DNA of 35,334 nucleotides, from positions 1-35,334 of the IMG/VR virus record IMGVR_UViG_3300046482_000239; one strand, 5' to 3'. The stretch comes from a virus. This document shows, piece by piece, positions 14,199 through 35,053 of the stretch. Within the stretch, counting starts at the first letter, position 1; each line of letters opens with the position of its first letter. The translations under genes and the position numbers were made by a program. Under the pieces are notes generated by a model. The model searched no databases. It was not told the origin of the DNA and worked only from the letters and a program-made list of their open reading frames with translations.

Positions 14199-16070
14199 TC
14201 ACCCCGCATAGGTCGCCACGGTGTACTGCACGCAGCCCGCGCGGGCCTTCTTCCAGTTGATGTACCGCTCGGCACGCAACCCGACGAGGTTGTTCTGCCA
14301 GAACGATGTCAGGATCGTGGTGGCGATGGTGGGATTGTCCGGCGCCGAGTCCATCTGCACCGAGGCTTCCGTCGAGACATCAATACTGACGCCGCCATCG
14401 TCCGCATAGAGGATCGCGTCCGGCACCAGGGCGATCACGTTGGTGCCGGCGGTCTGCGATGTCACCACCGTGAGGCCCAGAACCGTGCCCCCGCTCACGC
14501 CCATCGTGGGAAACATCAGTTGTCCGAGCGGATTGAGCGCCGAGCTCAGCGCGAGCGCGTTGGCTTCCGACATGATCAGCACGACTTGCGAGACCGGGAG
14601 GCCAGCCGCGACGATCGCATTGAGCAGCGCGATCACGTCCGTCCGCGCATTGGCCGGCGTGGTGCCGGCCGTGGTGATCGGCGTCACGCCATTGGTAATG
14701 GAGCCCGGCGAGACGTTCGCCACGGCCGCCTTCGTCGGATCGACGAACTCGTTATCGAGAAACGCCGCCATCCCTGTGATCATGTCGCGTCGGATCACGT
14801 CCTCCGCGTTCGGCGACGAGAAGCGCGCCAGCTCCTGGGTGATCGCGATAATGCCCGCGGCCTTCGAGAACGTCAGCGTGATGGTCCCGAACTGCAGCTT
14901 GCCCACCGGCTTCGGCGCCCCCTGGCCGACCCACTGGTACGTGCCGCCGCCCGTCTGCGACGGGACCGAGATATTGAACGGCACCTTCCGCAGGCCTGGC
15001 ACCTTGCCCAAGATCGTCGCCGGTCGCAAGAGGTCGAGAAACTCTGCGGCCATCGGCTGGAGTTGCGCCAAGGGACCGGCCCACGTGGCATCGGTCGTCG
15101 TCCCTGGCGCAACGGCGGCTTTCAGCACCAGCTCGACTTCCGGCGTGGAATCCTTCCACTGCTTGGCAAACTCGAGCGCCCGCATCGAATCACCGCGGCC
15201 ATAGGCCACGGCCTGGCAGTAGCGAAGAAACGCGGTGCCCTTCGGCAGGAGCGATTTCACCTGCACGACCGGTATGCCGCCGCGCAGCTCGGCGGCCTTC
15301 GTGATCGTCGTCGCCACGATCGGCGTCGCGGTCGCGGCCTGCGTCAGCTCGAGGGCCTTCAACCGCTCGACATGCTTATCGAGATTGGCGACATCGACGG
15401 CGAGGGCATCGTACTCCTCGGTCTGCTTGCCATCGAGCGTCACGGCCTCTTTCGCCGCGGCGTCCATGAGCTCCGTCATGCGCGTGGCTTTTGTGTTGCG
15501 GGTGGTGGTAAACGCCGTGATTTGTTCCGCGGTCGTCATGGGACGGCCTTTCGCGAACAGGCCCGAGATGCCGGGCGGGTACAGGCCGGACGCGGCCAGG
15601 TCAAGCGACTTGATCGTGTGAATCGTCGCGGAGGCATTCGCCGGAATCGTCACCAGCGACAGTTCGAGCACTTCCGTTTTCAGGAAGCGGAAGCCGCCTG
15701 TCACTTGGTCGAAACTCTCTTCGAGCGCGCGAAAGCCAATCGACACGCCGGCCACGAGGCCTGACGTGACCGACTGCCAGGCCTCTTCGACGCGATCGCG
15801 CAGCGCGCCGGCTTCAGCAATCGTCGGCAGCTCCGCTTCGAAGTCGAGGCCGTCCTTCGTCGGTTTCGAAAAGCGCACCATCCCAACCGGCTTTTGCGGG
15901 TTGTGATAGAGCAGCAGCGGGACGGGATTCTTGAACTGAATCCCAAGCGGATCGATCACGTCGCCCATGCGATCCGGGTCGGGCGTGGAGGCCACCCCGC
16001 GAATCACGCGGGCCGGTGCCTCAGCGGCTTTGATGTGAAGGAGGCTATACGCCCGATGCTGCGTCGCCAT
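14199..16070 (-). CDS. fused prohead protease and major capsid protein (HK97 type)
   Basis: 623 residues from ATG (MATQHRAYSL); an upstream in-frame GTG would add four residues. Residues ~10-155 form the U35 prohead protease: RVIRGVASTPDPDRMGDVI, a catalytic-type His in LLLYHN (56), Ser in GVSIGF (110) and acidic residues in KTEVLELSLVTIPA. Residues ~178-260 are a helical delta/scaffold region, and the rest is an HK97-fold capsid protein (GLRKVPFNISVPSQTGGGTY, ending SFWQNNLVGLRAERYINW). Fusion of protease and capsid in one chain is known in several siphoviruses; the protease should remove itself and the scaffold during maturation. The cleavage site is not identifiable by eye. Confidence 0.93.
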   Translation of the reverse strand: MATQHRAYSLLHIKAAEAPARVIRGVASTPDPDRMGDVIDPLGIQFKNPVPLLLYHNPQKPVGMVRFSKPTKDGLDFEAELPTIAEAGALRDRVEEAWQSVTSGLVAGVSIGFRALEESFDQVTGGFRFLKTEVLELSLVTIPANASATIHTIKSLDLAASGLYPPGISGLFAKGRPMTTAEQITAFTTTRNTKATRMTELMDAAAKEAVTLDGKQTEEYDALAVDVANLDKHVERLKALELTQAATATPIVATTITKAAELRGGIPVVQVKSLLPKGTAFLRYCQAVAYGRGDSMRALEFAKQWKDSTPEVELVLKAAVAPGTTTDATWAGPLAQLQPMAAEFLDLLRPATILGKVPGLRKVPFNISVPSQTGGGTYQWVGQGAPKPVGKLQFGTITLTFSKAAGIIAITQELARFSSPNAEDVIRRDMITGMAAFLDNEFVDPTKAAVANVSPGSITNGVTPITTAGTTPANARTDVIALLNAIVAAGLPVSQVVLIMSEANALALSSALNPLGQLMFPTMGVSGGTVLGLTVVTSQTAGTNVIALVPDAILYADDGGVSIDVSTEASVQMDSAPDNPTIATTILTSFWQNNLVGLRAERYINWKKARAGCVQYTVATYAG

Positions 16071-16099
16071 CGCTGGCGCCACAGCGTACGGGCGGGGTC

Positions 16100-22576: not shown

Positions 22577-24805
22577 TCACGAGGCGGCCGGCCTCGCCTG
22601 CCGGGCTTTCCAGAGCACCCAGCCCACGGCGAGGAGCCCCAGCACCACCAGGAGCACGCGAACCAGCACCTGGCGATTGGTCGAGGCCGGTGCCCCGGTG
22701 GGCGCCGTTTCGATGCGCCGCGCGCCAAAGGTGGGATCCTGCTCGAGCCAGCATTCGATGACGCTCCGCGCCACGCCACTCGACTTCGTGCCGCAATTCC
22801 CCGGCCCGAAGGGATTCGCCGGGAGGACCACGGTGCGGGTGTTGTTGGCGAGCGGCACGGTCGCGAAGCCGCCCACTTCGTTCTCGTGGTCAATCCGGCT
22901 CGTGTCGCCGTCGTCCTTGTCCCCGAGCAGCCGCGTATCGAGCGCGTCACGGTAGGCCGGATACGCGCCGACGTGGGCATCGAGATACGCCTCGACCTGA
23001 CTGCTCGGCAGGATGTGGTATTTCACGTCGTGGAACCACGTCAGCCCGTCGAAACATGCCTTGTTACATTCAGAGTTCGCGCGTGTGGCTTCATCCTGAT
23101 AACTCACGCCTGCCCATTGCCCATCGACCGATGAACCGGTGATCCCGGGCCCTTGATTGTCGGCCAGATAGACCTTGAATCCGCCTGCGTTCAACTGCGG
23201 CTGGTCCGCCTGAATCATGACGGTGCCATCCGGGTCGATCGTGGCCGGCCCCGGTCTCGCCACGTTCCCGATGTAGACCACTTCGGCGGGCGACTCCGCG
23301 TAATCCTGCGTCCCCACGATCTGCGTGAAGCCCCACGTGCCGTCCACGCCGCTGACGGTGGTGGGGTTGTAGGTCAGGATGTTGTAGTAGGCGCTGCGCA
23401 TGCCGGAACTGATCCACGGGGTCCGGTTCCCGTTCTGCGCAAAGTACGTGCGGGCCATGGTCAACGTGGCGCCGCTGCGGCCGTAGGTCAGGGAGCCATA
23501 CCCTTGATTGGCCGAGATGCCGAGTTGTTCAGCCGAGATGCTGTCCACGATGAGCGTGTCGCGCGGTTGCTGATAATTGCTTTGCGTGCCGCCAATAAAC
23601 ACATTGACGTTGAATCCGCCCGCGCCGCACCACGACGCGGAGACGTGGTCCAGCACCGTGTTGTAGACCGGGTTGTTTTGCCCGCGGATGAGGAACCCGG
23701 TCACCGAGCCCATGGCGCCGCCACAGCGCACCCGCACGTGCTGGACGACGATGTCGCGGTTGTCGATCCGGGGACACCCATTGCGCAGGGCGATGCCGGG
23801 TGGCGGTGCCGTCTGACCCGCAATCGTCATGTACGGATACACCATCGACCGACAGCCGGAGAGCTCGAGATAGCCCGACACATCGAACAGCACATACGAT
23901 GTGTCCATGCCCGTGGCGCACTGGTTGAACGTGCCGTGATAGTGCGCGATCGATCCGTGCGCGTCATTCCCACTCGACGTCGGGGCACCGGCGGTGTTCG
24001 CTCGATTGGTGACGATGCAAATCGTTTTGTTCGTATCGCCGGCTCCACCCAAGGAGTTGGCGCCGAAGCCTTGGTAATGCGGACGCAGCCCGCCGGAATC
24101 GCCCACGGGCTCCGTCGGCGGATCGACCGGCGGCGGCTCGGTCGAGGGCGCCTCGCCACGGGTCAGTGACAGCTGGTCGATGGTCGCGACCGCCTGCACC
24201 GCTTCCTGCCCCACGACCGAGGTCGTCGCGAGGCACCAGAACGCCGTGGGGGCCATCTCGATGGTGATCGGGCTCAGGGGCGTCTGCCACAGCTGTCCGT
24301 CCGACGAGATCGCCGTCGCAAAGCTGTTCCCCGTGCGCGTGAGACGGAGCCAGGTGTTGACGTTGCCTGGTAACCCTGTCGTGGCGGACGTGACCACGGC
24401 GCCCGGCGTGGGCCGCTGTTTCCGTTGAATGTTGTTGCTCGTCGGGAACCGAAAGACAAAGACCTGCTGCGAGTCGGGAGCCAGGGAATTGCGCACCATC
24501 ACGCCGCCCTGCGCGAAGTCCGCGCCCGTCATGGTGCCCACGCGCGCCGTCATCGAGGCGTCGCCCGCCAACGACCGGCAGGCGTAGCGGAAGTTATCGC
24601 TGGTCCCGGTGACGTTGGGCGCCGAGCTGCTGAGCGTCAGCACATCCGCCGCGCTCAGGCCAATCGGGCTCTGGTCGCTCCACAGGCCGGCGCCAGGCGT
24701 ATCGCCGATCGCGCCGATGTCCCCACTCAGCCACGTGTTCGTCAGGTCGATCTCGATCGACGTGATCTGCGCGAGCAGGACGATGAGCAGCACGAACTTC
24801 ATCAT
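22577..24805 (-). CDS. secreted pectate-lyase-like beta-helix protein with C-terminal membrane anchor
   Basis: 742 residues. MMKFVLLIVLLAQITSI is a short signal peptide or N-terminal anchor. Residues ~40-215 look like a DUF1349/concanavalin-type sandwich (TGADFAQGGVMVRNS, NTWLRLTRTGNSF, SSDGQLW). A Pro-rich linker (220-236) leads to a right-handed beta-helix (about 245-640) with pectate-lyase hallmarks: MTIAGQTAPPPGIALRNG, RDIVVQHVRVRCGG, LDHVSASWCG. A hydrophobic helix VLVRVLLVVLGLLAVGWVLW near 712-731 and a basic tail end it. Pectate lyases cleave acidic polysaccharides. A membrane anchor is not expected in a tail spike, so this may be a host-surface cargo protein. Cleavage activity is unproven. 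Confidence 0.82.
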   Translation of the reverse strand: MMKFVLLIVLLAQITSIEIDLTNTWLSGDIGAIGDTPGAGLWSDQSPIGLSAADVLTLSSSAPNVTGTSDNFRYACRSLAGDASMTARVGTMTGADFAQGGVMVRNSLAPDSQQVFVFRFPTSNNIQRKQRPTPGAVVTSATTGLPGNVNTWLRLTRTGNSFATAISSDGQLWQTPLSPITIEMAPTAFWCLATTSVVGQEAVQAVATIDQLSLTRGEAPSTEPPPVDPPTEPVGDSGGLRPHYQGFGANSLGGAGDTNKTICIVTNRANTAGAPTSSGNDAHGSIAHYHGTFNQCATGMDTSYVLFDVSGYLELSGCRSMVYPYMTIAGQTAPPPGIALRNGCPRIDNRDIVVQHVRVRCGGAMGSVTGFLIRGQNNPVYNTVLDHVSASWCGAGGFNVNVFIGGTQSNYQQPRDTLIVDSISAEQLGISANQGYGSLTYGRSGATLTMARTYFAQNGNRTPWISSGMRSAYYNILTYNPTTVSGVDGTWGFTQIVGTQDYAESPAEVVYIGNVARPGPATIDPDGTVMIQADQPQLNAGGFKVYLADNQGPGITGSSVDGQWAGVSYQDEATRANSECNKACFDGLTWFHDVKYHILPSSQVEAYLDAHVGAYPAYRDALDTRLLGDKDDGDTSRIDHENEVGGFATVPLANNTRTVVLPANPFGPGNCGTKSSGVARSVIECWLEQDPTFGARRIETAPTGAPASTNRQVLVRVLLVVLGLLAVGWVLWKARQARPAAS

Positions 24806-24810
24806 GGCCG

Positions 24811-25437
24811 TCACCGCACCGGGATCTTGTCCGCAATGTGCCCAGCCTGACTCGACCAGAGCGGGCGCCATGGATCGACGTCAGTCTGATAGATGACGAA
24901 GTTCCCGTCGTCCTGGAGTTGCGCGCGCACGGTGCCCTCGGCCGAGACGAGATGGGTCTGCGGCACGGGCTCGGCGGTCGGTGGCGGGGGGAGCACGCCA
25001 CCGGTGAGATTCGGCGCATACACCGGCACCGTGAACCACGCGCCGTGCGCCGAGATGAACGCAACTTTCTTCTCGTCGTAGTCCTGCGCGTCAACCGTTA
25101 TCTGGGGCTGCAAGCACATGCGGATACACGGCACGCGTTGGCCAGCGGGCCAGCCGGGCGGCTCCTCGTTCACCATATCAATGGCGAAGTTGAGGCTGCG
25201 GCGCGGATAGTCCGCGTCGCTGGGGTTCTCCAGCCCTTGCAGTAGATCGCCCGCGATCCGCACGATCATCCCGACCACGCCATCGGGGAAGTCGGAGTAC
25301 GACTTGCCGAAGCGGAGCAGGATTTGATCGGGATTCGGCAGCTTCGCGTCGAGCGCGACCTCATCATGCGCCGCCGCGTAGAGCACCGCGTGATCCAGCT
25401 CGTGGATCAAATCTTTCGGATCTTTGGGTAAGGTCAT
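24811..25437 (-). CDS. hypothetical protein with bulb-type lectin motif
   Basis: 208 residues; GGAGG is well placed before the ATG (MTLPKDPKDLIHELDHAVLY). The N-terminal ~140 residues are unrecognised and mixed alpha/beta. After a Pro-rich linker (150-160) comes LVSAEGTVRAQLQDDGNFVI with Tyr and Trp following. QxDxNxVxY (175-183) is the mannose-binding motif of bulb-type lectins, although only one copy is present where full domains have three. The gene lies five bases before the pectate-lyase-like gene, so both may act on cell-surface or environmental glycans. The lectin call is moderate. Confidence 0.65.
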   Translation of the reverse strand: MTLPKDPKDLIHELDHAVLYAAAHDEVALDAKLPNPDQILLRFGKSYSDFPDGVVGMIVRIAGDLLQGLENPSDADYPRRSLNFAIDMVNEEPPGWPAGQRVPCIRMCLQPQITVDAQDYDEKKVAFISAHGAWFTVPVYAPNLTGGVLPPPPTAEPVPQTHLVSAEGTVRAQLQDDGNFVIYQTDVDPWRPLWSSQAGHIADKIPVR

Positions 25438-26150
25438 CGCATCCTCCCCTGCCTCCTGTGGACGGCTTGCCTCGTCCGTCCGTGGTGGCCCCGCCGCCGT
25501 CGCCAAGGTCGAGGCGGCCCTGCGCGCGCGCTGTGCCCGGCGCCAGCCTCCCCCCGACGGCTGGCGCCGGCTGCCACTCCCCGCGGTCCCTCAGTCCCGT
25601 GCGCGCGGCGCGACGCCGCCCAACGCCTGGACCAGCCGCTCCGCCCACTGGCGATCGGGGTCGTCGGTCGCCCGGCGCGCGAGTCGATGCGCGGCCAGCA
25701 ACAGCCTGGTGACGCGCCGCGCCAGACGATCCGCGCCTCGGCCCGCTCCGTCGTGTACACCTTCCAGCAATCCCAATGCACGATCTGTGCATCGTTGCGG
25801 AGGATCGTGTGTTCGAGCGCATCGCCGACCGCGCGAACGAGCTTGTCGAGGTCGGGCGCGACGATCGGAAAGATCCGCCGCCGCGGCACACTCGAGGGTT
25901 TCGGCAACGCGAACCGAATCCGGACCGCGATCGGCCCGCGGAGGAGGGCGGTCGCGAAATCAGGCGCCTGATGGTGGACCGCCGCGCGGATGTCGGATCG
26001 CCACTCGAGGAGGGAGGCGCGGTTGTTGTGTGTGACAACGGGAACGACATCGACGGATCCATCCGCCTGGCGACGCGGACGCGTAAACGCCCGGGTCGAC
26101 CCTTGCGGTCGCGCGACCCCGTGGACCGTGAACGTGCAGAGGAGCGGCAT
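25434..26150 (-). CDS. rusA: RusA-family Holliday junction resolvase with anomalous C-terminal read-through
   Basis: Residues 1-143 are a full-length RusA: FTVHGVARPQGSTRAF at the start, the acidic catalytic segment IVAPDLDKLVRAVGDAL near 97-112 and ILRNDAQIVHWDCWKVYTT near 116-134, ending EARIVW. RusA resolves recombination and replication junctions before packaging. The frame has no stop there and runs on for about 95 Arg/Gly-rich residues, overlapping the lectin gene start by ATGA. Codon statistics favour a different frame (25591-25776) in that stretch. A lost stop or indel near 25720 is likely. Confidence 0.85.
   Translation of the reverse strand: MPLLCTFTVHGVARPQGSTRAFTRPRRQADGSVDVVPVVTHNNRASLLEWRSDIRAAVHHQAPDFATALLRGPIAVRIRFALPKPSSVPRRRIFPIVAPDLDKLVRAVGDALEHTILRNDAQIVHWDCWKVYTTERAEARIVWRGASPGCCWPRIDSRAGRPTTPIASGRSGWSRRWAASRRAHGTEGPRGVAAGASRRGEAGAGHSARAGPPRPWRRRRGHHGRTRQAVHRRQGRMR
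25591..25776 (-). CDS. possible small helical protein or true C-terminus of RusA
   Basis: In the -1 frame relative to RusA the sequence reads DRLARRVTRLLLAAHRLARR, then DPDRQWAERLVQALGG, ending ARD. Third-position GC is about 90 percent, better than the RusA frame over the same bases. The only in-frame start is a TTG inside rusA. Either a frameshift joins it to RusA, or it is an overlapping gene with a weak start. The following ~150 bases before the lectin start show no clear gene. Confidence 0.45.
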   Translation of the reverse strand: MGLLEGVHDGAGRGADRLARRVTRLLLAAHRLARRATDDPDRQWAERLVQALGGVAPRARD

Positions 26151-26152
26151 CG

Positions 26153-27031
26153 TCAAGCGGTCTCGAGGGGCAAACGGAGTACCCGTAATGTCCGCGGCGT
26201 TGGCAACATCGCCGGCGACCCGTGAATAATCGCGGGTCGTGCCCACCGTCGCTGAAACGCCCGCCACTCCGGCGCGGGCCGATACCGCATCTGAGAGGGC
26301 GTCTCCGGCCGCCAGAGCATCGCCATCGGCGTAAATCCGATCGAGAGCATTTGCCGCAATCGCGTCTCCGCGGCGGTCAACGTATCGTGTGGGAATCCGA
26401 TGAGGACGTAACAGCGGAGACGATGGCCGCGCGAGGAGAGACCGGCCGCAAGTAATCGCCGGGCGGCCGATGCCAAAGTCTCGAACGCATCGCCGGGATC
26501 GTAGGCCCAAAACATCACCGGTTGCGGTTTCAGACTCGCCAACAAATCGACTTGATAATCCTGCAACGATAACGCCTCGAGGCCGCCCGTAAACTCGACG
26601 CGCCGCGATTGGCGGCGGAGCATCGCAAAGACGGCCCGGACGTGATCCTCCGGACAGGCGAGGAGGTTATCGTCAAGGATGTTCCAACCGTCTTGAATCG
26701 GGAGCAACCGCGGTTCCGGGTCGCGTTTCCAGACCGAACAAAACCAACACCGACGCGGGCAACCGCGCGACGTAAACACATAGCCCGGTTTGATGTACTT
26801 CCCGACAATGAAATCCTCGCCGCGATCCCCATAGGCGACGCCGCCAACGGTTGTCGGCGCGACATGCCTCCACTGTTCGGCCAATTGTTCGGCGTATGGC
26901 TTGTCGTACGTGAACGTGACGGAGACGTGTACGGCGTCGGCCGTGTCGAGGAGGTCGGGCGGCCCGAATCGGGCGAGCTCATCGCAGGGTGTTGCACGCG
27001 TCCGACGAGGGAATACGCGGATCAGTTTCAT
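26153..27031 (-). CDS. radical SAM protein
   Basis: 292 residues, ATGA-coupled to the upstream gene. The cluster-binding CxxxCxxC is seen in SRGCPRRCWFCSVWKRD (C91, C95, C98). Upstream, DAVHVSVTFTYDK and GGVAYGD recall a B12-binding-like N-terminus, reduced in size. Downstream elements fit a radical SAM barrel: DNLLACPEDHV, RVEFTGGLEAL, FWAYDPGDAFE, CYVLIGFPHDT. Proteins with SRGC.R.C.FC occur in many phages (family knowledge), but substrate and reaction are unknown. Its position between nucleotide and DNA-processing genes suggests DNA or nucleotide modification, which is inference. Confidence 0.9.
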   Translation of the reverse strand: MKLIRVFPRRTRATPCDELARFGPPDLLDTADAVHVSVTFTYDKPYAEQLAEQWRHVAPTTVGGVAYGDRGEDFIVGKYIKPGYVFTSRGCPRRCWFCSVWKRDPEPRLLPIQDGWNILDDNLLACPEDHVRAVFAMLRRQSRRVEFTGGLEALSLQDYQVDLLASLKPQPVMFWAYDPGDAFETLASAARRLLAAGLSSRGHRLRCYVLIGFPHDTLTAAETRLRQMLSIGFTPMAMLWRPETPSQMRYRPAPEWRAFQRRWARPAIIHGSPAMLPTPRTLRVLRLPLETA

Positions 27032-27276
27032 AGGGTCTCGAGGGGGAGGCGGTCCGCGGGGGCGTCGATGGCGGGCGTCGCCTCGGCCGGGAGCTCGTAC
27101 ACCGGGACGGGTTCGAAACACTCCTCGGCCGGGAGAAATCCAACCTCGATATGGAACCCGGCGAGACGCCGGCGACCGTCCGGGCCGAGGGCGACGAGCT
27201 CCGCGCCGTCGATGGCGACGAAGTCATCATCCTCGAGACAGGAGAGCCACCGTTTGAGGCGCCCGGCGTCAATCAT
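27028..27276 (-). CDS. hypothetical small acidic protein
   Basis: 82 residues. LKRWLSCLEDDDFVAIDGAE and GRRRLAGFHIEVGFLP give an opening helix followed by a beta region, a pattern recurring in short phage proteins (W...L.DDD.VAID.G.L.L). It is ATGA-coupled to the radical SAM gene and overlaps the preceding gene by 8 bases. Function unknown. A role with the radical SAM protein is suggested only by tight coupling. Confidence 0.7.
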   Translation of the reverse strand: MIDAGRLKRWLSCLEDDDFVAIDGAELVALGPDGRRRLAGFHIEVGFLPAEECFEPVPVYELPAEATPAIDAPADRLPLETL

Positions 27277-27645: not shown

Positions 27646-28071
27646 TCAGGCGCTTTCCTTGTCCGTGCGAGGCAGTGCGCGTCGGACTTCATCAATCAAG
27701 TCGTGGACCGTTTCAAAGGCCCCGAGCCGTTCACCAGGGCGATCGGCGGGTAGCCACGGATGCACCGCCGCATGACACCGGAGGCAGATCGCCACGAGGT
27801 TCTGCCGTCTCTTGCTGCCGCCGTTGTTCACCGTGATGACGTGATGCCAATACAACTTCCGTTCGGCGCTCAGGCAACAGAAACAATTCGCCGGGTACGG
27901 GTAGAACACCTCTCGCGCGGATTCCTTGGACCAGTCTGGCGGCCGCCGAATCGCCACCGTGGTCAACAACCGCAGGAGTTGGATCCGGTCGCCGCCGTCG
28001 CCGACCATCTGCCAGAAGTTTGCGAGTACCTGTTCTTCTGGCACCGGCGAGAGATAGACCGTCTTCGTCAT
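27646..28071 (-). CDS. HNH endonuclease
   Basis: 141 residues, ATGA-coupled to the replication gene upstream. The N-terminal half is helical (EEQVLANFWQMVGDGGDRIQ). The HNH core spans ~60-105: ANCFCCLSAERKLYWHHVIT, V.NGG (residues 81-85) and NLVAICLRCHAAVHPW, with zinc-type Cys pairs flanking the HH. It is the third HNH gene in the window. It may be a homing or junction nuclease; target unknown. It sits in the replication module rather than by terminase, so a packaging role is less likely. Confidence 0.88.
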   Translation of the reverse strand: MTKTVYLSPVPEEQVLANFWQMVGDGGDRIQLLRLLTTVAIRRPPDWSKESAREVFYPYPANCFCCLSAERKLYWHHVITVNNGGSKRRQNLVAICLRCHAAVHPWLPADRPGERLGAFETVHDLIDEVRRALPRTDKESA

Positions 28072-28994
28072 CGTCGGCCACGCGCGGCGAGCGCCTTGAG
28101 TTGATGGCCCATGGCGGCCGGCGTCCGCGCCTTCAACAGTTTGGTTGCCATTGCGGCGACGGACCCCTTGTCGCCACGTGTCACGGGAATCAACAGCCGT
28201 TGCGTCGCGGCCGATACCAACGCGCGGCGGGCGATGTGCGGATCCGTGTGGTAGTGGATCGAGAGCGCCGCGCATCGTGTCTTGAACGCTTCCACGACAT
28301 CCGGTGATTCCGGATCGTCGGCGCCGATCTCCTCGAGGACTGTGTGTGCCAACCGTTCGAGGACGGCGAAGTTGCCATCGGCCGCCGGTGCTTTGGCCAG
28401 TCGTTTGGCTTGCGAGGAAGAGGGTGTGTGTGTCGCGCGGGTGTCTGGCGCGGCGGAGCCGCTGTTCCAATCATCCTTACGCACACCCTCGCCCCCCACT
28501 TGATCGGGAACGGTCGAAGTACTCCGATCTTGGGGATCGGGGATCGGGGATCGGGGATCGGGGATCGGGGATCCACCGTTACGCAAGCGTGACAGCACCG
28601 TTACTTCGCCTGTGCGTAACGGCGTTACGTGGGAGTTTTCCACAGGCTGTTTGTCCCGAAACCGCTTCTGCCGTTTCCTTGTAACCTGACGTTCCGCAAG
28701 GACTTCAGCCGCGCTCTTGTTCCAATCCAGGTAGTCGTGAATGCGCCATGAATTCCCGCGCAGTTTTTTGATCAGCTTCGCCCTACCCAAAGATAAGATG
28801 GCACGTTCATTGCGCGACACTTTTTGCAAAAACTCGTCAGGCACGACACCGTCAGTGAGATGCTTCCTGGCGTAGCCAATGGCCGCGACGTACAACCCGA
28901 GGGCCGCCATCGCGCCGCCCTGCGCGTCACCAATGAGGGTGCCTGCGCGCAAAATCTTGCGATGCTCGGCGATCAGTTCATCCAGATAAATCAT
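28068..28994 (-). CDS. replisome organiser / replication initiation-like protein
   Basis: 308 residues from MIYLDELIAEHRKIL; a start 21 codons upstream is possible but lies in an AT-rich promoter-like stretch and collides with a divergent gene. Residues ~25-100 resemble the winged-helix domain of phage replisome organisers: ALGLYVAAIGYARKHLTDGV, AILSLGRAKLIKKLRGNSWR, IHDYLDWNKSAAEVLAER followed by R.KRQKRFR. A disordered middle includes SPIPDP repeats made by a DNA tandem repeat. A C-terminal helical domain (ERLAHTVLEEIGADDPESPD, RRALVSAATQRLL) could recruit helicase or its loader. No helicase is in the window. Confidence 0.7.
   Translation of the reverse strand: MIYLDELIAEHRKILRAGTLIGDAQGGAMAALGLYVAAIGYARKHLTDGVVPDEFLQKVSRNERAILSLGRAKLIKKLRGNSWRIHDYLDWNKSAAEVLAERQVTRKRQKRFRDKQPVENSHVTPLRTGEVTVLSRLRNGGSPIPDPRSPIPDPQDRSTSTVPDQVGGEGVRKDDWNSGSAAPDTRATHTPSSSQAKRLAKAPAADGNFAVLERLAHTVLEEIGADDPESPDVVEAFKTRCAALSIHYHTDPHIARRALVSAATQRLLIPVTRGDKGSVAAMATKLLKARTPAAMGHQLKALAARGRR
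28532..28573. repeat. heptanucleotide tandem repeat (GGGGATC)6 inside a gene
   Basis: Six perfect copies of a 7-base unit encode the linker PIPDPRSPIPDP of the replication protein. Because seven is not a multiple of three, gain or loss of one copy shifts the frame; three copies restore it. Confidence 0.95.
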
Positions 28995-29055
28995 CGGCGT
29001 GAGGCGATTTAAGTCGATTTCTGATTCACGGCTGGGCCTGCGGTAGACTGCCGTC
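28995..29055. promoter_or_regulatory. divergent promoter region
   Basis: An AT-richer 61-base gap lies between the replication gene and a rightward micro-gene. On the plus strand TAGACT (29044-29049) lies six bases before an ATG, as in leaderless promoters. On the minus strand GACTTAAATCG may hold a -10 for the replication gene. No clear -35 on either strand. Confidence 0.45.
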
Positions 29056-29154
29056 ATGCAGTCCCACCTGTCCGTCCGCACCCTCAATGCCCTCATGTGG
29101 GTCGGTTTCGCTCTCATGCTCTTGGCGGCCGCCATGTACGCATGGAGATCCTGA
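29056..29154 (+). CDS. micro membrane protein (32 aa)
   Basis: MQSHLSVRTLNALMWVGFAL is followed by MLLAAAMYAWRS. The 19-residue hydrophobic centre is one transmembrane helix with short basic ends. The ATG lies six bases after TAGACT with no Shine-Dalgarno, suggesting leaderless expression. It runs against the surrounding leftward operon. Its end overlaps the start of the next micro-gene by 13 bases. Function unknown; holin-like or membrane-sensing roles are guesses. Confidence 0.55.
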   Translation: MQSHLSVRTLNALMWVGFALMLLAAAMYAWRS

Positions 29155-29264
29155 TCGGGATCCTCGGGCTCCTCGTCTCGATGTACAGCCTGTCCTCGCG
29201 CACCGATCTGCTGCTCACCGAGATTCGCGATCTCCTGCGCGAGATTCGCGATCATCAGCGCTGA
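29142..29264 (+). CDS. micro membrane protein (40 aa)
   Basis: MEILIGILGLLVSMYSLSSR gives one membrane helix, then RTDLLLTEIRDLLREIRDHQ forms an amphipathic helix with two copies of EIRD. It is translationally coupled to the 32-residue gene upstream. Its last 10 bases overlap the 3' end of the convergent exonuclease gene. The paired membrane proteins repeat the arrangement in the 18.7 kb operon, though the sequences are not obviously related. Confidence 0.55.
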   Translation: MEILIGILGLLVSMYSLSSRTDLLLTEIRDLLREIRDHQR

Positions 29265-30931
29265 CGCGTCCGCCGCACCGGCGTTACCGTCTGCGAGAAC
29301 CGGAACCCCGGCCACTGCAGCGTGTCGCGGTCCGCGGCCGCGCGTGTCTTCAGCGCATCGGCATTCCCCGCGAACATCGTGGACGGGATGATCGGCAGTT
29401 CCGTTGCGAGCGCCCGGAGGCGTGTGGCGATCATGTGCGTCGCCGGACTCTGGCCGCCGGCGACGGTGAGCTGCCCGTCCTCGATGAGCGCCGCGACCTC
29501 GCGGAAGATATCGGGTCGTGCGGCCGCCATGAGGGCATCCTTCATGTCGGTAATCTCGCCCGTCCAGCCGGCGCGCACGCCCAACCCGGCGACGTCGGCG
29601 GCTGGGGCCTGCAGCACGGGCGCGCATGCGACCGTCACGGCTTCGGGTTCCACCGCGCGCGCCCGTTCAATGAGTTCAGCGGCGATGGCCGCCTGTCCCT
29701 GCTGCGCCGCCTGCATCGCCTCATCGGCGAGTCGACGCCGTTCCGCCGCCGCCACGCGTTCCACCTCGGCCTGCGCCGCCCGCTGCTTGCGATCCGCTTC
29801 GAGCCGCGCCAGGCGGTCGAGGTCCTCGAGCTCGCGCTTCCGCAGCGTGTAGCGCCGCGCCGCCGTCTCGCCGCCGGTCTTGACAAATTGCACGACGCGC
29901 CGCTTCACCGCATACACGCGGTCCAGATACAGCCGCGGCTTGCGAATCGCCGGCTCGAACAGTTCGTCGAGCAGCTGCTCGCGTTCTTTCGCGATGAGGC
30001 TTTGCTGGCCGAGGGCGGCGAGCTGCTGCGGCGTGTCGATCGGCATGTCGCGCATCTCTGCGGCGAAGGCCTGCGCGGTCGCCTCATACGGCGCGATGGC
30101 TGCCTCGAGCGTCGTCAGATAGGCGTCGACGTCGGGCGTAATCATCAGTTCGCGAATCGTCGGGGCCTCGGCCGGCAGCACCTCGGGCGCGTCATCGGGC
30201 AGGTCGAACGACGGCATCAGCTCGCTGTCATCGGGCAGGTCGAATGACGGCATCGGCATCTCGGCCATCGGGGTCCTCCATTCCACATCCGGCGCGCGAT
30301 AGGCGCACTCGAGCGCCGCCCGAAAGTGCATCGCGTCGCTGGCGTCGTCGCGAAAGCGATGCACGGTGTACTCGCCGTCGGCGTCGACCACGACGGCCCA
30401 GCGCTCCACGTCCACCGCAATCAACTGCGGGTATTGCTGATACAGCGCATCGAGATAGGCCAGCGTCTGTAACCCGGCCAGGTCGGGCACGCCGGTCTTG
30501 ATGTCGAGCAGCACCAGGCGCTTCGCGTCGACGACGCAGAGGAAATCGAGCTTCCCGATGTAGGGTCGCCGGCGAGGGGGAGCCAGGCCGAGGTCGCGCG
30601 AACAGACAACGGTTTCACAGAGCAGCGGTTCCACCTGGCGGCTCGCACAGAACCACTTCCAGGCCTCGACGCGGATGTCCACGGCCGGGATCAGGGGGCC
30701 GTTGCCCAGGTCGCGTTCCGCGTGATAGTGCGCCGCCGCATGCACGGCGGTGCCGATGGCGGCCTTGTGCCGCAGCACGTCGGGCGGCACGTGCGCGAAG
30801 CGATCGGGATAGGCGAGGCCGAGCACTTGCGTCACGCTCGGCGCCCGACGGCGATCGACGTAATGCCGACGGGACACGACGTCATAGGCGACGCCCTCGA
30901 GCCACGACGGATTGGGGGTGAGGGCCTGCAT
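29255..30931 (-). CDS. PD-(D/E)XK exonuclease fused to a long helical domain
   Basis: 558 residues. Residues 1-215 are a Cas4/RecB-like nuclease: GTAVHAAAHYH (60-70), YIGKLDF (D129), LVLLDIKTGVPD (D143, K145), and the downstream QTLAYLDAL. After a linker with a 12-residue tandem repeat (MPSFDLPDD twice), residues ~260-558 form a helical and coiled-coil domain (KPRLYLDRVYAVKRRVVQFV, a KREL..LDRLARLEADRKQR heptad region, LGVRAGWTGEITDMKDALMA). The latter resembles a separate phage protein family found beside RecT genes (from memory). In the same module as RecT it should resect DNA ends for single-strand annealing. The fusion is notable. Confidence 0.8.
   Translation of the reverse strand: MQALTPNPSWLEGVAYDVVSRRHYVDRRRAPSVTQVLGLAYPDRFAHVPPDVLRHKAAIGTAVHAAAHYHAERDLGNGPLIPAVDIRVEAWKWFCASRQVEPLLCETVVCSRDLGLAPPRRRPYIGKLDFLCVVDAKRLVLLDIKTGVPDLAGLQTLAYLDALYQQYPQLIAVDVERWAVVVDADGEYTVHRFRDDASDAMHFRAALECAYRAPDVEWRTPMAEMPMPSFDLPDDSELMPSFDLPDDAPEVLPAEAPTIRELMITPDVDAYLTTLEAAIAPYEATAQAFAAEMRDMPIDTPQQLAALGQQSLIAKEREQLLDELFEPAIRKPRLYLDRVYAVKRRVVQFVKTGGETAARRYTLRKRELEDLDRLARLEADRKQRAAQAEVERVAAAERRRLADEAMQAAQQGQAAIAAELIERARAVEPEAVTVACAPVLQAPAADVAGLGVRAGWTGEITDMKDALMAAARPDIFREVAALIEDGQLTVAGGQSPATHMIATRLRALATELPIIPSTMFAGNADALKTRAAADRDTLQWPGFRFSQTVTPVRRTRQR
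30191..30253. repeat. 36-bp tandem repeat in the exonuclease linker
   Basis: Two copies of a 27-base block, starting GTCATCGGGCAGGTCGAA, differ at one base and lie 36 bases apart. They encode MPSFDLPDD twice. The frame is kept because the period is 12 codons. The acidic, Phe-containing peptide could be a protein-docking motif. Confidence 0.8.
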
Positions 30932-31392: not shown

Positions 31393-32520
31393 TCACGCCT
31401 CCAGCGCCGTCAGCCGGCGCCGGCCCTGGGCGTCGGCCGGGTCCGCCGTGATCCGCCGCAGCTGCCCCGTCGCGGCCTCCAGCTGCAACCCAAGCGGCGT
31501 GTCCCGCGTCCACAGGCGCAGGCCGCCGTCGGTCGTCGCCTTCCACCCGCCGTGGACGCGGATCACCTCGAGAATCCGATCCGTGAGCGGACCGGACACC
31601 GAGGGCGGTGGGGGTGGCGGCGGCGGCGGCCCGGGTGTCGGTGAGGGGTCCGGCGGCTGCGGCTGTTGGGCCGAGGCGCGCTGCGGCATTGAGATGATGT
31701 CGCCCGTCTCTTCATCCACACTGTCGCCGTCCAGCATCGGCGTCGCCTCGGCGTTCGGATCCGCGAGGAGCGCCAGGTCCTGCGGCACCCCGGCTTCCGC
31801 CGCATCGTCGAGGCCGGCCGCCCGCTGAATTTCCACCGACAGCGGCGCCAGTTTCAGCAGTTGCTTCAGGCTGGTTTTCTTCCACATCCACGCTTCATCG
31901 GTGAACCACGGGGAATCGCGCTTGCCGTACTTGAGGCCGGTCTGATACGCCTGCGAGCGGTCGCGAATGGCGTGCACCTGGCGGCGGTTCATGACGTTGA
32001 GGTCGTAGCCGCCATCCTTCAAGCGATAGAACGAATAGGCGTAGACAAGGGCGCCCGGATCGCCGTCACCGTCGAACGGTACGTGTTCGACGCTCGGCGA
32101 GAGGCCGCGGATCTGCTTGAACTGATCGCGCTCGTAGACGGCATCCGCGCCGATCGTCGAGACTTCGCCGGAACGCCGCGCCAGCGTCACCAGGCCGCGG
32201 TAGCCGATCTGGAATTGGCACTCAAGGAGGTTCTTCTTTCGGTTCTCAAATGGAATCAAATACGCCTGCCCGAGAAAGCCATCCGGCACGAGCCCGAGCT
32301 GCGCGCACTGCAGCACCGCGCCGAGAAACGAGATGGACGAGCACTGCGCCAGCTTCGGGTTGCGCTGGACGGCCGTCAGCACCACGCGCATGAAGTACGC
32401 CGGCGTGATGTGCTTCGGTAGGGCGGCGATGATTTCGGCTTGTTTATCTGTCAACAAGTTGCGCACGGTGTAGGTTTTCGCGGGGGCCGCCTCGGTGCGA
32501 GCGGAAATTGCAGTCGTCAT
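31393..32520 (-). CDS. recT: RecT-family single-strand annealing protein with C-terminal extension
   Basis: 375 residues, TGATG-coupled to the upstream gene. Residues ~18-255 are RecT: NLLTDKQAEIIAALPKHITP, FMRVVLTAVQRNPKLAQCSS, GAVLQCAQLGLVPDG (69-81), QFQIGYRGLVTLARRSGEVS and WMWKKTSLKQLLKLAPLS. RecT anneals complementary strands produced by the phage exonuclease. A Pro-rich linker with about ten consecutive prolines (296-306) leads to a 65-residue extra domain (LTDRILEVIRVHGGW, GLRLWTRDTPLGLQLEAATG). I do not recognise it in usual RecT proteins (about 270-330 residues). The extension may bind ssDNA-binding protein or DNA; unproven. Confidence 0.93.
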   Translation of the reverse strand: MTTAISARTEAAPAKTYTVRNLLTDKQAEIIAALPKHITPAYFMRVVLTAVQRNPKLAQCSSISFLGAVLQCAQLGLVPDGFLGQAYLIPFENRKKNLLECQFQIGYRGLVTLARRSGEVSTIGADAVYERDQFKQIRGLSPSVEHVPFDGDGDPGALVYAYSFYRLKDGGYDLNVMNRRQVHAIRDRSQAYQTGLKYGKRDSPWFTDEAWMWKKTSLKQLLKLAPLSVEIQRAAGLDDAAEAGVPQDLALLADPNAEATPMLDGDSVDEETGDIISMPQRASAQQPQPPDPSPTPGPPPPPPPPPSVSGPLTDRILEVIRVHGGWKATTDGGLRLWTRDTPLGLQLEAATGQLRRITADPADAQGRRRLTALEA

Positions 32521-33104
32521 CACGGTGTCTCCAGCCACGTCCTGAACGTGGCACGGTCAGAGGGTGTGGCTTTGCGCCACCAATGTTGAAGATGCTCCAA
32601 TGGGGTTTTTGTCTTGATCCAGCCCGCCTGACGGGTGGCGGTAAAGGCCTTCAACGTGCCGGCGCGAACTTTGGCGGCGAGGTCGGGTCGATCACGCTCG
32701 AGACGAGCCAGACGGTATTCAGTACCACGACCAAAAGAGGTAGCATTGCTATCTCTTTTCTTGTGTCCACGTCCCGGGCCAAATCCCCACTTCGCGAGTC
32801 GCCCAACTTTCTCGGCTAGTTCAGCCGGGACCGGCACTTCCTCGCCGAGCACTTCGATTCCGGCAATCATGGCTTCCACGACATCAGATGGCTGACGTAA
32901 TCGCTGGATACAGAACTCAGTCTCTTCATCGAGGGTCGCCATCGCGAGCGCGTCGTCGATGAAGGTCCGCACCGAGCGCGGATAGCGGCGGGCCGTGGCG
33001 ATCTGCACGTCGACCTCCCCGCGCGTCTGCGCCTCGATGGCGAGGGACGGCCGCACCTCGATCGGGTCGGATTCGATGGGCACTGAATCAGGTCCGGTCG
33101 TCAT
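32520..33104 (-). CDS. mosaic protein: N-terminus of a recombination-associated family joined to a helical DNA-related C-terminus
   Basis: 194 residues. Residues 20-75 (EAQTRGEVDVQIATARRYPR, then FIDDALAMATLDEETEFCI) match the start of a phage family that normally continues YALPR.GK.IEGPS.R.AEI (from memory). That continuation is absent. From ~85 the sequence is VPVPAELAEKVGRLAKWGFG, a basic segment and RGTEYRLARLERDRPDLAAK, then KTPLEHLQHWWRKATPSDRA. This C-terminus resembles phage and mobile-element proteins of the R..DRPD.....AG... type. The junction suggests fusion or internal deletion. TGATG coupling to recT suggests a shared recombination role. Confidence 0.7.
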   Translation of the reverse strand: MTTGPDSVPIESDPIEVRPSLAIEAQTRGEVDVQIATARRYPRSVRTFIDDALAMATLDEETEFCIQRLRQPSDVVEAMIAGIEVLGEEVPVPAELAEKVGRLAKWGFGPGRGHKKRDSNATSFGRGTEYRLARLERDRPDLAAKVRAGTLKAFTATRQAGWIKTKTPLEHLQHWWRKATPSDRATFRTWLETP

Positions 33105-33121: not shown

Positions 33122-33328
33122 TTAGCCATTCGCCGCCGCAGGCGAGGGCTCTTCTGTCTCGTCCACGTTGGGGGCTACCACTTCGCGGAGGCGCTCTCTG
33201 AACGCAGCATCCAAGCGAGCCATCGCCGCCTCATGCTGATCGAGAAGCTGTCGCACGCTCCGAGTAAACCGCATGCCCTGTGCCCGTTCGGATGTGACGC
33301 CGATCTTCACGAGTGCGGATTTCGTCAT
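33122..33328 (-). CDS. hypothetical small helical protein
   Basis: 68 residues, overlapping the upstream gene by ATGA. MTKSALVKIGVTSERAQGMR, then SVRQLLDQHEAAMARLDAAF are mainly helical. The acidic tail ends EEPSPAAANG. No recognised family. It may be a small DNA-binding or adaptor protein; nothing in the sequence decides. Confidence 0.65.
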   Translation of the reverse strand: MTKSALVKIGVTSERAQGMRFTRSVRQLLDQHEAAMARLDAAFRERLREVVAPNVDETEEPSPAAANG

Positions 33329-33924
33329 ACAAATCTCCTGCTTTCCGCGACGCCTTTTAGTTCATCGCGCACTCGATTCAGGCGCGTCATCGCCTCTTTC
33401 GAGCCGCCGCGATCCGGGTGCAGGCGCGTCGCCAATGCCTTGAACCCGACATCAATCAATTCGAGTGCTATCTCGCGGTGCAGCTTCACTTCGTCCGCCC
33501 GCGTTTGTTGTTCCTGCGCGTAGAGATCCGTCTCGAGTTCGCGCAGGACGGACTTGTAAGCGCGTTCGCTATGGCGTCGCTCGCGTTGGTGCGATGTAAC
33601 GCCACGCATTTCGCGGAGGCTCGTCGGCAAAACGGGATCGGAGGCCCCGTTTCCAGCCTTCTCCGCACGTAATCGTGCCCACCGCATGTAGATTCGGGCC
33701 TGTTCTTGACTGCGCGTGAAGTTTTTCGATAGCCACGCGCCCCAATAGCCGTGTGCGACCTGCCCTTTCGCTTCAATCAACTTGTCGCCGGCATCAGCGT
33801 AGTACTCCATGCCGGCGCGGTCGCCGCGTTCGAGGTCGGCTTGAATCAGCGGAATCAAGACCTTCAGCGGCCGACTGATGGTCGCCCGGTCACGTTTCGC
33901 GACTGCTGCTGCAAGTGGGCTCAT
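33325..33924 (-). CDS. DUF3102-like protein with C-terminal J-domain-like HPD segment
   Basis: 199 residues, ATGA-coupled upstream. Residues 21-85 (LKVLIPLIQADLERGDRAGM, KLIEAKGQVAHGYWGAWLSK, then SQEQARIYMRWA) resemble the DUF3102/ParB-like region found in phages and plasmids. A charged coiled-coil follows (120-160), and the C-terminus reads GFKALATRLHPDRGGSKEAM, then RLNRVRDELK. L...HPD.GG......LN.A...L is the J-domain core, with HPD at 169-171. J-domains stimulate Hsp70 ATPase. The phage may direct host DnaK to its replication complex, as lambda P requires; this is inference. Confidence 0.75.
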   Translation of the reverse strand: MSPLAAAVAKRDRATISRPLKVLIPLIQADLERGDRAGMEYYADAGDKLIEAKGQVAHGYWGAWLSKNFTRSQEQARIYMRWARLRAEKAGNGASDPVLPTSLREMRGVTSHQRERRHSERAYKSVLRELETDLYAQEQQTRADEVKLHREIALELIDVGFKALATRLHPDRGGSKEAMTRLNRVRDELKGVAESRRFV

Positions 33925-34409
33925 ACGGCCGCCGCTTCGCGGGCTCGCCGCAGATCGACGTATCGATCAATTTCGTTTGCATGCGCAATAAGGCGAGTCG
34001 CCTGCGCCCGATACAGAGCAGCCTTCGCCAGTAGTTCGTCATCGGTGCATTCCTCGATGGGCACACCGACATCGACACCATCGCGTTTTATGACGTAGTA
34101 GTGCTGCAGGTACTCGAAGCCTGGCAGGAATGGAACATCTGCGACCCTATCAGGTTTCTCGCGTTCATTGATGCAACGGGTGACGAGCTTCCGCGTGATC
34201 GTGTACCCGCCGTGCTTCCAAAAGGCAATGTGGTACTGCTGCTCCTCGCTGGCAGTCGTCTCATCAGCGAGGCCGGTATGATGCTGCCTGCAGATTTCCT
34301 GCGTAATCCATAGCGGTTGCAACGTTTCCCGACGCTGTTGGCGTTTATCGAGTAGCGTGTTGATTTCCAGCCGCAATTGTTCTTCCGTGTATGTCAATGG
34401 CGTAGACAT
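33921..34409 (-). CDS. hypothetical protein of an uncharacterised phage family
   Basis: 162 residues from MSTPLTYTEEQLRLEINTLL; a TTG 13 codons upstream is less likely. N-terminal helices (RQQRRETLQPLWITQEICRQ) are followed by FLPGFEYLQHYYVIKRDGVD, VPIEECTDDELLAKAALYRA and a C-terminal helix. The LPGFE.LQ.AY...RDG..V.VP...LTD.EL..KA pattern recurs in phage genomes near replication genes (from memory), without assigned function. Overlaps the upstream gene by 16 bases and the next by 4. Confidence 0.7.
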   Translation of the reverse strand: MSTPLTYTEEQLRLEINTLLDKRQQRRETLQPLWITQEICRQHHTGLADETTASEEQQYHIAFWKHGGYTITRKLVTRCINEREKPDRVADVPFLPGFEYLQHYYVIKRDGVDVGVPIEECTDDELLAKAALYRAQATRLIAHANEIDRYVDLRRAREAAAV

Positions 34410-35053
34410 CGGCCCTTCTCCAGTTCCGCGCGGAACGTTTGCAGCCAACCTTGAATCACGTCGATGCGCTGAACAGCGTGCGCAACCTCGTGGGCGTATA
34501 CGGCGCCGACGATCATCTCTGCCGAATGTATGCGGCAGAACTCCTCGAGAGATTTCAACGTGCCGAGCACCTTCGTTGCTTCCGCAAAGCCTGTCGGCTT
34601 CGATTGCTTCTCCGTGCCGCGTTCGGCGAGCGCGGTAACACTCGGCGGATCGTTGCTGTCAACGGCAGCATCGAAATCGGCCTGCGGCACGTTAGCGACG
34701 CGCACTGCTTGTTTCTCTTGGTCTTTCGACATGCCGGCGTTTTTTGCTGCGTCACGTTGCGACCTAGGGGGGGAATCCCCCCTAGGTTTGGTGCGAACAC
34801 CTGGATTCTGAAACTGCTGGAGCAACTCGCCGCAGCGTCGAATCGCACGCGCCTGAATCCGCACGGCAAACTTCTGCAAGCTGTCGTCGTCAGCTTGCTT
34901 GGCGTAGCTCGCGAGCGCCGCCGCCTTGTCCGCCCAGTCCTTGCATTCGTCCACACGCTGGCAGTTTTGAAGTGCGGCCCGCGCTCGTTCATACGAGGCC
35001 GGAAGGCTCGCGTCGGAGATAGTCGGTAACTGTCTAGCGAGAGCGGTCGTCAT
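34394..35053 (-). CDS. hypothetical helical protein of a phage/ICE family
   Basis: 219 residues from MTTALARQLPTISDASLPAS; the ATGA overlap with the previous gene supports this start over longer in-frame versions. Residues ~55-90 (YAKQADDDSLQKFAVRIQAR, AIRRCGELLQQFQ) and 110-150 (QRDAAKNAGMSKDQEKQAVR, VANVPQADFDAAV, DSNDPPSVTALAERG) match a recurrent family in phages and integrative elements, often beside MT-A70 methyltransferases (from memory). The middle contains a helix-turn-helix-like AAKNAGMSKDQ. The C-terminal part has RIHSAEMIVGAVYAHE. DNA binding is plausible but unproven. Confidence 0.7.
   Translation of the reverse strand: MTTALARQLPTISDASLPASYERARAALQNCQRVDECKDWADKAAALASYAKQADDDSLQKFAVRIQARAIRRCGELLQQFQNPGVRTKPRGDSPPRSQRDAAKNAGMSKDQEKQAVRVANVPQADFDAAVDSNDPPSVTALAERGTEKQSKPTGFAEATKVLGTLKSLEEFCRIHSAEMIVGAVYAHEVAHAVQRIDVIQGWLQTFRAELEKGRCLRH

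Follow-up and report, generated by a model that had tools for sequence, protein, structure and literature searches.

Does the HPD-bearing tail of a phage protein engage the host chaperone DnaK and, if so, at which phage complex? The question is raised by a 199-residue protein encoded in the window, that is, the whole stretch of 35,334 bases analyzed here, a virus record that was classed after IMG/VR. A sequence-only reading of the locus had picked out a DUF3102-like region, the string LATRLHPDRGG and a following helix, and had suggested that they recruit DnaK to a phage partition or replication complex. Our analysis leads us to propose, with a probability of roughly 0.6, that the protein is a phage co-chaperone acting via host DnaK at the phage recombination-replication machinery.

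The elements from which that reading set out are present in the protein. LATRLHPDRGG makes up residues 164-174, the DUF3102-like region scores above the Pfam gathering cut-off (Table 1), and AlphaFold2 predicts a helix after the HPD. A DUF3102 match at E <= 1 was found in 30 of the 30 rows of the family alignment, the window included. When the full-length window protein was scanned, a DnaJ match at E <= 1 was absent from Pfam, and NCBIfam likewise made no DnaJ call. The gene overlaps its upstream and downstream neighbors by four bases each, at its start and stop, which is the usual arrangement for translational coupling.

Table 1. Features of the window discussed in the text, with the basis of each assignment.
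Feature	Position	Strand	Basis or remark
DUF3102/J-hairpin protein gene	33325..33924	-	199 aa, ATG start; ORF list and family alignment
DUF3102 match, residues 43-84	33673..33798	-	Pfam, 26.5 bits against gathering cut-off of 24.4
Predicted long helix, residues 111-168, its end equivalent to helix II	33421..33594	-	AlphaFold2 models
HPD tripeptide, residues 169-171	33412..33420	-	Sequence
Predicted helix III equivalent, residues 176-195	33340..33399	-	AlphaFold2 models
C-terminal SRRFV (TRRF-type tail), residues 195-199	33328..33342	-	Marker of one of two subtypes
Upstream gene, 175 aa, overlapping the start codon of the J-protein gene	33921..34448	-	phrog_32407, no function assigned
Downstream overlapping gene, 68 aa protein, coiled-coil-like by eye	33122..33328	-	Conserved neighbor of the TRRF subtype
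RecT single-strand annealing protein	31393..32538	-	Pfam RecT, 145 bits
Exonuclease	29255..30931	-	phrog_298, E 4e-16
Replication initiation protein-like	28068..29627	-	phrog_2447, E 8e-27
RusA-like Holliday junction resolvase	25434..26510	-	phrog_140, E 4e-18
Radical-SAM-like protein, between structural and recombination genes	26153-27121	-	E 1e-15
Pectate-lyase-like protein, between structural and recombination genes	22577-24871	-	E 1.5e-5
627 aa ORF, head maturation protease (N-terminal part) and major head protein families	14199-16082	-	PHROGs

Conservation was judged on relatives that had been collected blind to the HPD. We scanned IMG/VR with a DNA pattern for residues A37 to K53 only, which returned 66 stretches, eight of them unrelated, four truncated by the end of the locus and 54 complete; the complete relatives reduced to 46 distinct proteins, a few being near copies. 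HPD is found in 45 of the 46. The remaining protein (L102:4680-5264, +) carries HSD, with the rest of the hairpin apparently kept. Smaller HPD-blind pattern scans yielded four loci, three of which were found by both scans, and three distinct proteins, all with HPD. At the nucleotide level, the histidine of the 46 relatives is encoded by CAC (33) or CAT (13), the aspartate by GAT (19) or GAC (27), and the proline by four codons. The share of the commonest residue, as a column mean, is 0.99 for the HPD, compared to 0.75 for the loop and helix III, 0.64 for helix II, 0.62 for the DUF3102 part and 0.37 for the linker. Furthermore, HPD and G174 are retained in sequences that diverge elsewhere, and HPD persists in all three relatives in which the glycine loop has been rebuilt (L084, L094 and L104). 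A separate set of relatives had been retrieved with HPD as a requirement, and its HPD conservation was discounted as evidence because the motif is present there by design. Because HPD is retained in 45 of 46 blind relatives across synonymous codon change, the tail is more than a chance occurrence, and the motif is under selection.

The proposed resemblance to J-domains is borne out by sequence profile, and by local structure too, but with weak E-values. We built a profile from 42 tails, 39 of the DUF3102 type together with those of L045, L057 and the lone copy in L049, which were chosen from the tails in hand and many of which had originally been found through HPD. Against PDB sequences, J-domains of T antigens and DnaJ filled eight of the first nine rows (E 1e-5 to 9e-4), with T-antigen J-domains at 9.8e-6, 4.6e-5 and 8.7e-5 and DnaJ from 4.3e-4. 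Histone H2B stood at rank 6 (E 5.5e-4), with numerous further H2B entries at 0.05-0.2 among the best 60 of 191 rows. The Pfam DnaJ family was matched at E <= 1 by 41 of the 42 tails, the best at 1.3e-6; of the 30 full-length rows, 24 matched it as well. Taken alone, the window tail reached 14.3 bits (E 0.044), which is below the cut-off of 27.8, as are L045 (27.3), L057 (15.4) and L049 (16.5).

The structure predictions contain the hairpin expected of a J-domain core. For the full window protein (30-row alignment), AlphaFold2 returned a mean pLDDT of 84.8 and a pTM of 0.50, with a long helix, the HPD loop and a second helix (Table 1); block-mean pLDDT was 93-96 over residues 151-190 and 57-70 over residues 111-130. 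The tail modeled alone had a pLDDT of 96.1 and again formed a helix-HPD-helix hairpin. The comparison with J-domains that the sequence-only reading had called for thus gave a high-confidence helix II-HPD-helix III hairpin, and a fold lacking it was not seen. When the tail was searched against the PDB with Foldseek, the top row was the Tim14 J-domain (2guz; rmsd 1.2 over 37 columns, probability 0.80, E 2.8). J-domains accounted for four of the best 50 rows, the other three being 1faf (rmsd 6.5), 5nro_B (3.3) and 2ctp, all within the first 20 and spanning rmsd 3.3-6.5, and every J-domain had an E-value above 1. Against viral models, the full model matched four rows, namely, a small t antigen, a phage Fnu1 chaperone, a Caudovirales DnaJ and a Tetraselmis virus DnaJ, with rmsd 0.5-1.1 over 36-42 columns, probabilities of 0.92-0.97 and E-values of 2.8-3.9. 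Foldseek of the full model against the PDB returned a list of 41 with zero J-domains. VIA-align placed 1faf at rank 30 for the full model (Z 4.9, 26% identity), with unrelated hairpins ranked above it, and found no J-domain among the best 50 rows for the tail; its rows mostly span residues 109-199, and many unrelated helical hairpins score equally well or better. Since unrelated hairpins match too and the J-domain Foldseek E-values exceed 1, the fold alone is not decisive for J-domain identity, which is decided by sequence and constraint.

The tail also lacks parts of a complete J-domain. In the model, the helix before HPD is unbroken throughout its confident part (residues 131-168) and spans the place expected of helix I, so that helix I is predicted to be absent. 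The chain ends 28 residues past HPD, and therefore helix IV is absent as well. Similarly, the Pfam DnaJ match starts at profile position 9 of 63. A J-domain has about 70-75 residues, with helix I packed against the other two helices of its core, and the tail does not have this build. As modeled, then, the tail is a stripped-down, incomplete J-domain, an HPD hairpin without helices I and IV. Because helix I is missing and the DnaJ score stays under the Pfam cut-off, the family is a variant of phage J-domain proteins and not a canonical member.

We also mapped the contacts that DnaJ makes with DnaK, as listed in PMC8215388, onto the family by our own alignment, in which H33 corresponds to H169. 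H33, P34 and D35 are kept, the Y25 equivalent is Y or F in 46 of 46 relatives, and the K26 equivalent is K or R in 44 and H in two; according to PMC1906734, the J-domains tested there depend on Y25 and K26 for function. The F47 equivalent is L. Among the positive DnaJ contacts R22, R27, K48 and K51, only the last is retained (R or K in 45 of 46). K48 has become N in 42 of 46, and none of the 46 retains R27 (A, V, G, S or I instead). In 43 of 46, D or E takes the place of R22, a residue that aids the positioning of DnaJ on DnaK (PMC8215388). Loss of R22 and R27 is compatible with function because, in the 1faf alignment, polyomavirus T has Q at both equivalents. PMC1906734 also states that L10 of helix I is required in the canonical J-domains tested. 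Our guess is that helix I could be substituted either by a dimer formed via the long helix or by packing of a partner protein.

The genes around the family point to the process in which it may take part. Of the 50 relative records, 12 carry RecT (11 above the cut-off), 10 carry ERF and 17 carry YqaJ; at least one of the three occurs in 26, and none in 24, many of which are fragments. Among records of 20 kb or more, and measured centre to centre, 7 of 9 have RecT no further than 4 kb from the J-protein gene (1.8 expected for random positions) and 9 of 10 have the YqaJ nuclease there (1.9 expected); edge to edge, the counts are 7 of 9 and 10 of 10. Median centre-to-centre distances gave p 5e-5 for YqaJ and 0.001 for RecT. 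Proximity of ERF was not significant among records of this size (1 of 3, p 0.86), and ERF lies within 3 kb of the J-protein gene in 7 of all 10 records that carry it. Such proximity may only reflect the clustering of early phage genes, which cluster anyway, and therefore it fixes the module and not the client. The RecT of the window itself has a proline-rich stretch beyond its core domain.

Immediately downstream, the family shows a pattern that constitutes a new observation: each of two tail types is paired with one of two partner genes. We surveyed 50 members, consisting of the 46 distinct relatives, L043, L061, L069 and the window, and assigned 27 to a TRRF-like type and 23 to a short, non-TRRF type. 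An ORF of 65-85 aa comes next downstream in 26 of the 27 TRRF-type members, with a four-base overlap in 21 of the 26; the exception is L049, with a J-hairpin of 71 aa standing alone close by. In the short type, the next ORF encodes 141-172 aa in 21 of 23. One exception, L043, is truncated by the end of the locus yet shows the start of a protein of this kind, and in the other, L092, the start rule that we applied chose a different frame. At 1e-6, BLAST links 18 of 51 loci via the small partner and 17 of 51 via the larger one. An HMM built from 21 small partners of other loci recovered the 68 aa protein of the window (E 1e-4). Of its four nearest kin, three matched with E-values between 5e-6 and 3e-4 and one with 0.04. 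None of the partner proteins tested reached a Pfam cut-off, and the 141-172 aa proteins tested had no Pfam matches and weak or no PHROG matches. By eye, the larger partners (L078:3895-4329, -; L061:4883-5365, +; and others) look helix-turn-helix-like. The correspondence of tail type and partner suggests that the end of the tail docks the partner. Alternatively, it may stem from a single evolutionary split, and a tree of the N-terminal part indicates that one subtype change suffices (support 54/92).

The DUF3102/J-hairpin family was met only in IMG/VR records, by a pattern method that can miss relatives. When genomes were scanned for patterns of the N-terminal half, the 209 stretches returned included zero relatives. 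With tail patterns, 13 loci were recovered in 61 stretches, all of them other J-proteins in which, by eye, the N-terminal half of the family is absent. In named phages and plasmids, nowhere was 80% of the window protein covered, and two distant relatives went unmatched. Two cyanophage proteins annotated as "molecular chaperone" (L110 and L111), which at first resembled the family, were also set aside, since by eye a helix I region precedes their HPD and their start does not resemble DUF3102. The former (L110:3545-4138, +), from Synechococcus phage Ssp-JY39, has a C-terminal J-domain, and its gene follows Bet with two genes between. For Vibrio phage pVco-5 and Microcystis phage Mae-JY30, an annealase near the J-protein was not annotated, although Mae-JY30 has a putative endonuclease; these cases speak against a general rule of recombination neighbors. 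The hairpin is also found behind other sequences or by itself. In L045 (2848-3162, -) and L057 (6962-7354, -), it lies behind an ExoX-like_C/QSregVF_b N-terminus (QSregVF_b in L057, 32.4 bits against a cut-off of 22; L045 below the cut-offs). In L049 (3747-3962, -), the lone 71 aa hairpin, with HPDHGGS, directly follows a full DUF3102/J-protein gene where the usual small partner is absent.

DnaK recruitment is the most likely role for a protein with this tail. Alongside what was computed (the hairpin, as a model, selective constraint and gene order), we infer that the hairpin docks on DnaK, which we regard as probable, that the DUF3102 half serves as a tether, and, more tentatively and at slightly less than even odds, that the clients are recombination or replication proteins. 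The C-terminal hairpin (helix II, HPD loop and helix III) would dock on DnaK, the host Hsp70, and trigger ATP hydrolysis in the fashion of a J-domain. The DUF3102 half, together with the small protein of the downstream gene, could tether the hairpin to the recombination-replication machinery, where DnaK would remodel proteins such as annealase filaments and nuclease or initiator complexes. Lambda P and P1 RepA, which are remodeled by DnaK/DnaJ, are textbook precedents. By such a mechanism, these phages would bring the host chaperone to their own DNA. A bolder version is doubtful but deserves mention. The hairpin looks portable because it is found behind the ExoX-like_C/QSregVF_b N-terminus in L045 and L057. 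Conceivably, helix II-HPD-helix III is the smallest working J-domain unit, needs no helix I when mounted on a long helix, and is the phages' portable DnaK plug for DNA-transaction proteins, joined to DUF3102 with a tail-matched, co-translated partner, to the ExoX-like/QSregVF_b sequence (clear in L057, weak in L045), or to nothing at all (the 71 aa protein of L049), and the partner might gate the J-site as CbpM does that of CbpA.

Other functions can be imagined for the same hairpin. As a decoy or inhibitor, it would fill the J-site of DnaK unproductively or compete with DnaJ, thereby freeing sigma32 or blunting a DnaJ-dependent defense. Docking could indeed be altered in a protein that lacks helix I and has an acid in place of R22, and an NLR-like anti-phage protein requires DnaJ, according to work cited in PMC12619734. 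Yet HPD is strictly retained, including the aspartate that bonds DnaK R167 and Q378 (PMC8215388), which argues for stimulation, and a decoy does not call for the frequent neighborhood of recombination genes; we therefore consider this function unlikely. We give even less credence to a module for protein-protein or DNA-bound oligomerization that resembles helix II-HPD-helix III and never meets DnaK. Its appeal is that helical hairpins are common folds, that the predicted helix of residues 111-168 resembles a coiled coil, and that R22 and R27 are not retained. It leaves unexplained, however, the contrast in conservation between HPD and linker, the retention of G174 and of the Y/F25 and K/R26 equivalents, and the fact that the profile retrieves J-domains first.

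The partition complex invoked by the sequence-only reading fared worst. On plasmid pD of Methylobacterium, a single gene separates the gene of a DUF3102 protein from one of the ParA family, which would suit a partition or plasmid-maintenance protein. But the DUF3102 proteins of pD and of Paenibacillus (2 of 8 plasmid records) are without HPD, and RecT, ERF or YqaJ occurs in the window as well as in the 26 relative records, often near the J-protein gene. Moreover, no partition family was found among 18 window proteins scanned, eight with Pfam and PHROGs and ten with PHROGs only, in a record that may be a fragment; the neighbors are recombination and replication genes. The context favors recombination over partition, and a partition role strikes us as highly improbable.

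The impression that tails of this kind on DUF3102 proteins are little studied agrees with the literature searched, where DUF3102 is mentioned in three papers and in no title or abstract. Among the best matches of those searches, the DUF3102/J-hairpin family was absent from titles and abstract starts, and none linked host Hsp70 to RecT/ERF-type recombination; the only phage J-protein with an experimental function in the literature searched was Rki. Should the hairpin prove functional, it would offer a test of the need for helix I and connect recombination of the RecT/ERF type with the host Hsp70.

Known systems share some of these features. DUF3102 (PF11300) covers part of the N-terminal half of the window protein above the Pfam cut-off, whereas the HPD tail is absent from the two plasmid DUF3102 proteins examined. 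Tim14/Pam18 (2guz), part of the mitochondrial import motor, provided the top Foldseek PDB row for the tail and has an HPDKGGS loop with an aligned N, but it possesses the full J fold and is complexed with Tim16, as the entry title states. The best PDB sequence relatives are polyomavirus T antigens (1faf and 1gh6), in which a short HPDKGGS loop likewise leads into a helix that carries an aligned N. Unlike the window tail, their J-domain is full and N-terminal, per the entry title. The T-antigen J-domain has helix I. By gene arrangement alone, the locus is comparable to CbpA-CbpM of E. coli, where a small protein is encoded directly downstream of the J-protein (PMC8215388).

The closest functional counterpart comes from phage RB43, whose Rki is described in PMC3486835 as the first functional phage J-protein, binding DnaK through its J-domain. 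Like the window protein, Rki is phage encoded, has HPD between helices II and III and a weakly conserved helix IV, and lies beside recombination genes. Its gene, 057w (rki; L112:2567-3280, +), is just downstream of gp47, gp46 and gp45.2, with one gene (gp45.2) separating it from gp46, and Lw1 and vB_Mm5 have a like gene order. With tblastn, the window protein weakly matched the Rki region in 14 of 15 records at 34-35% identity (E 2e-2 to 8e-2), over query residues 119-187 only. In Rki, however, a J-domain of ~75 aa is N-terminal; the window protein lacks the combination of such a domain with an Rki-related C-terminal region, and its hairpin is C-terminal, without helix I and behind DUF3102. 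More broadly, a 2026 review (PMC13254874), citing the survey by Barriot et al., counts 48 phage class C J-proteins without another known domain, and that survey may already list the DUF3102/J-hairpin family. As the review presents them, these 48 class C proteins have no second known domain, whereas the family described here joins a J-hairpin to DUF3102, often in recombination operons.
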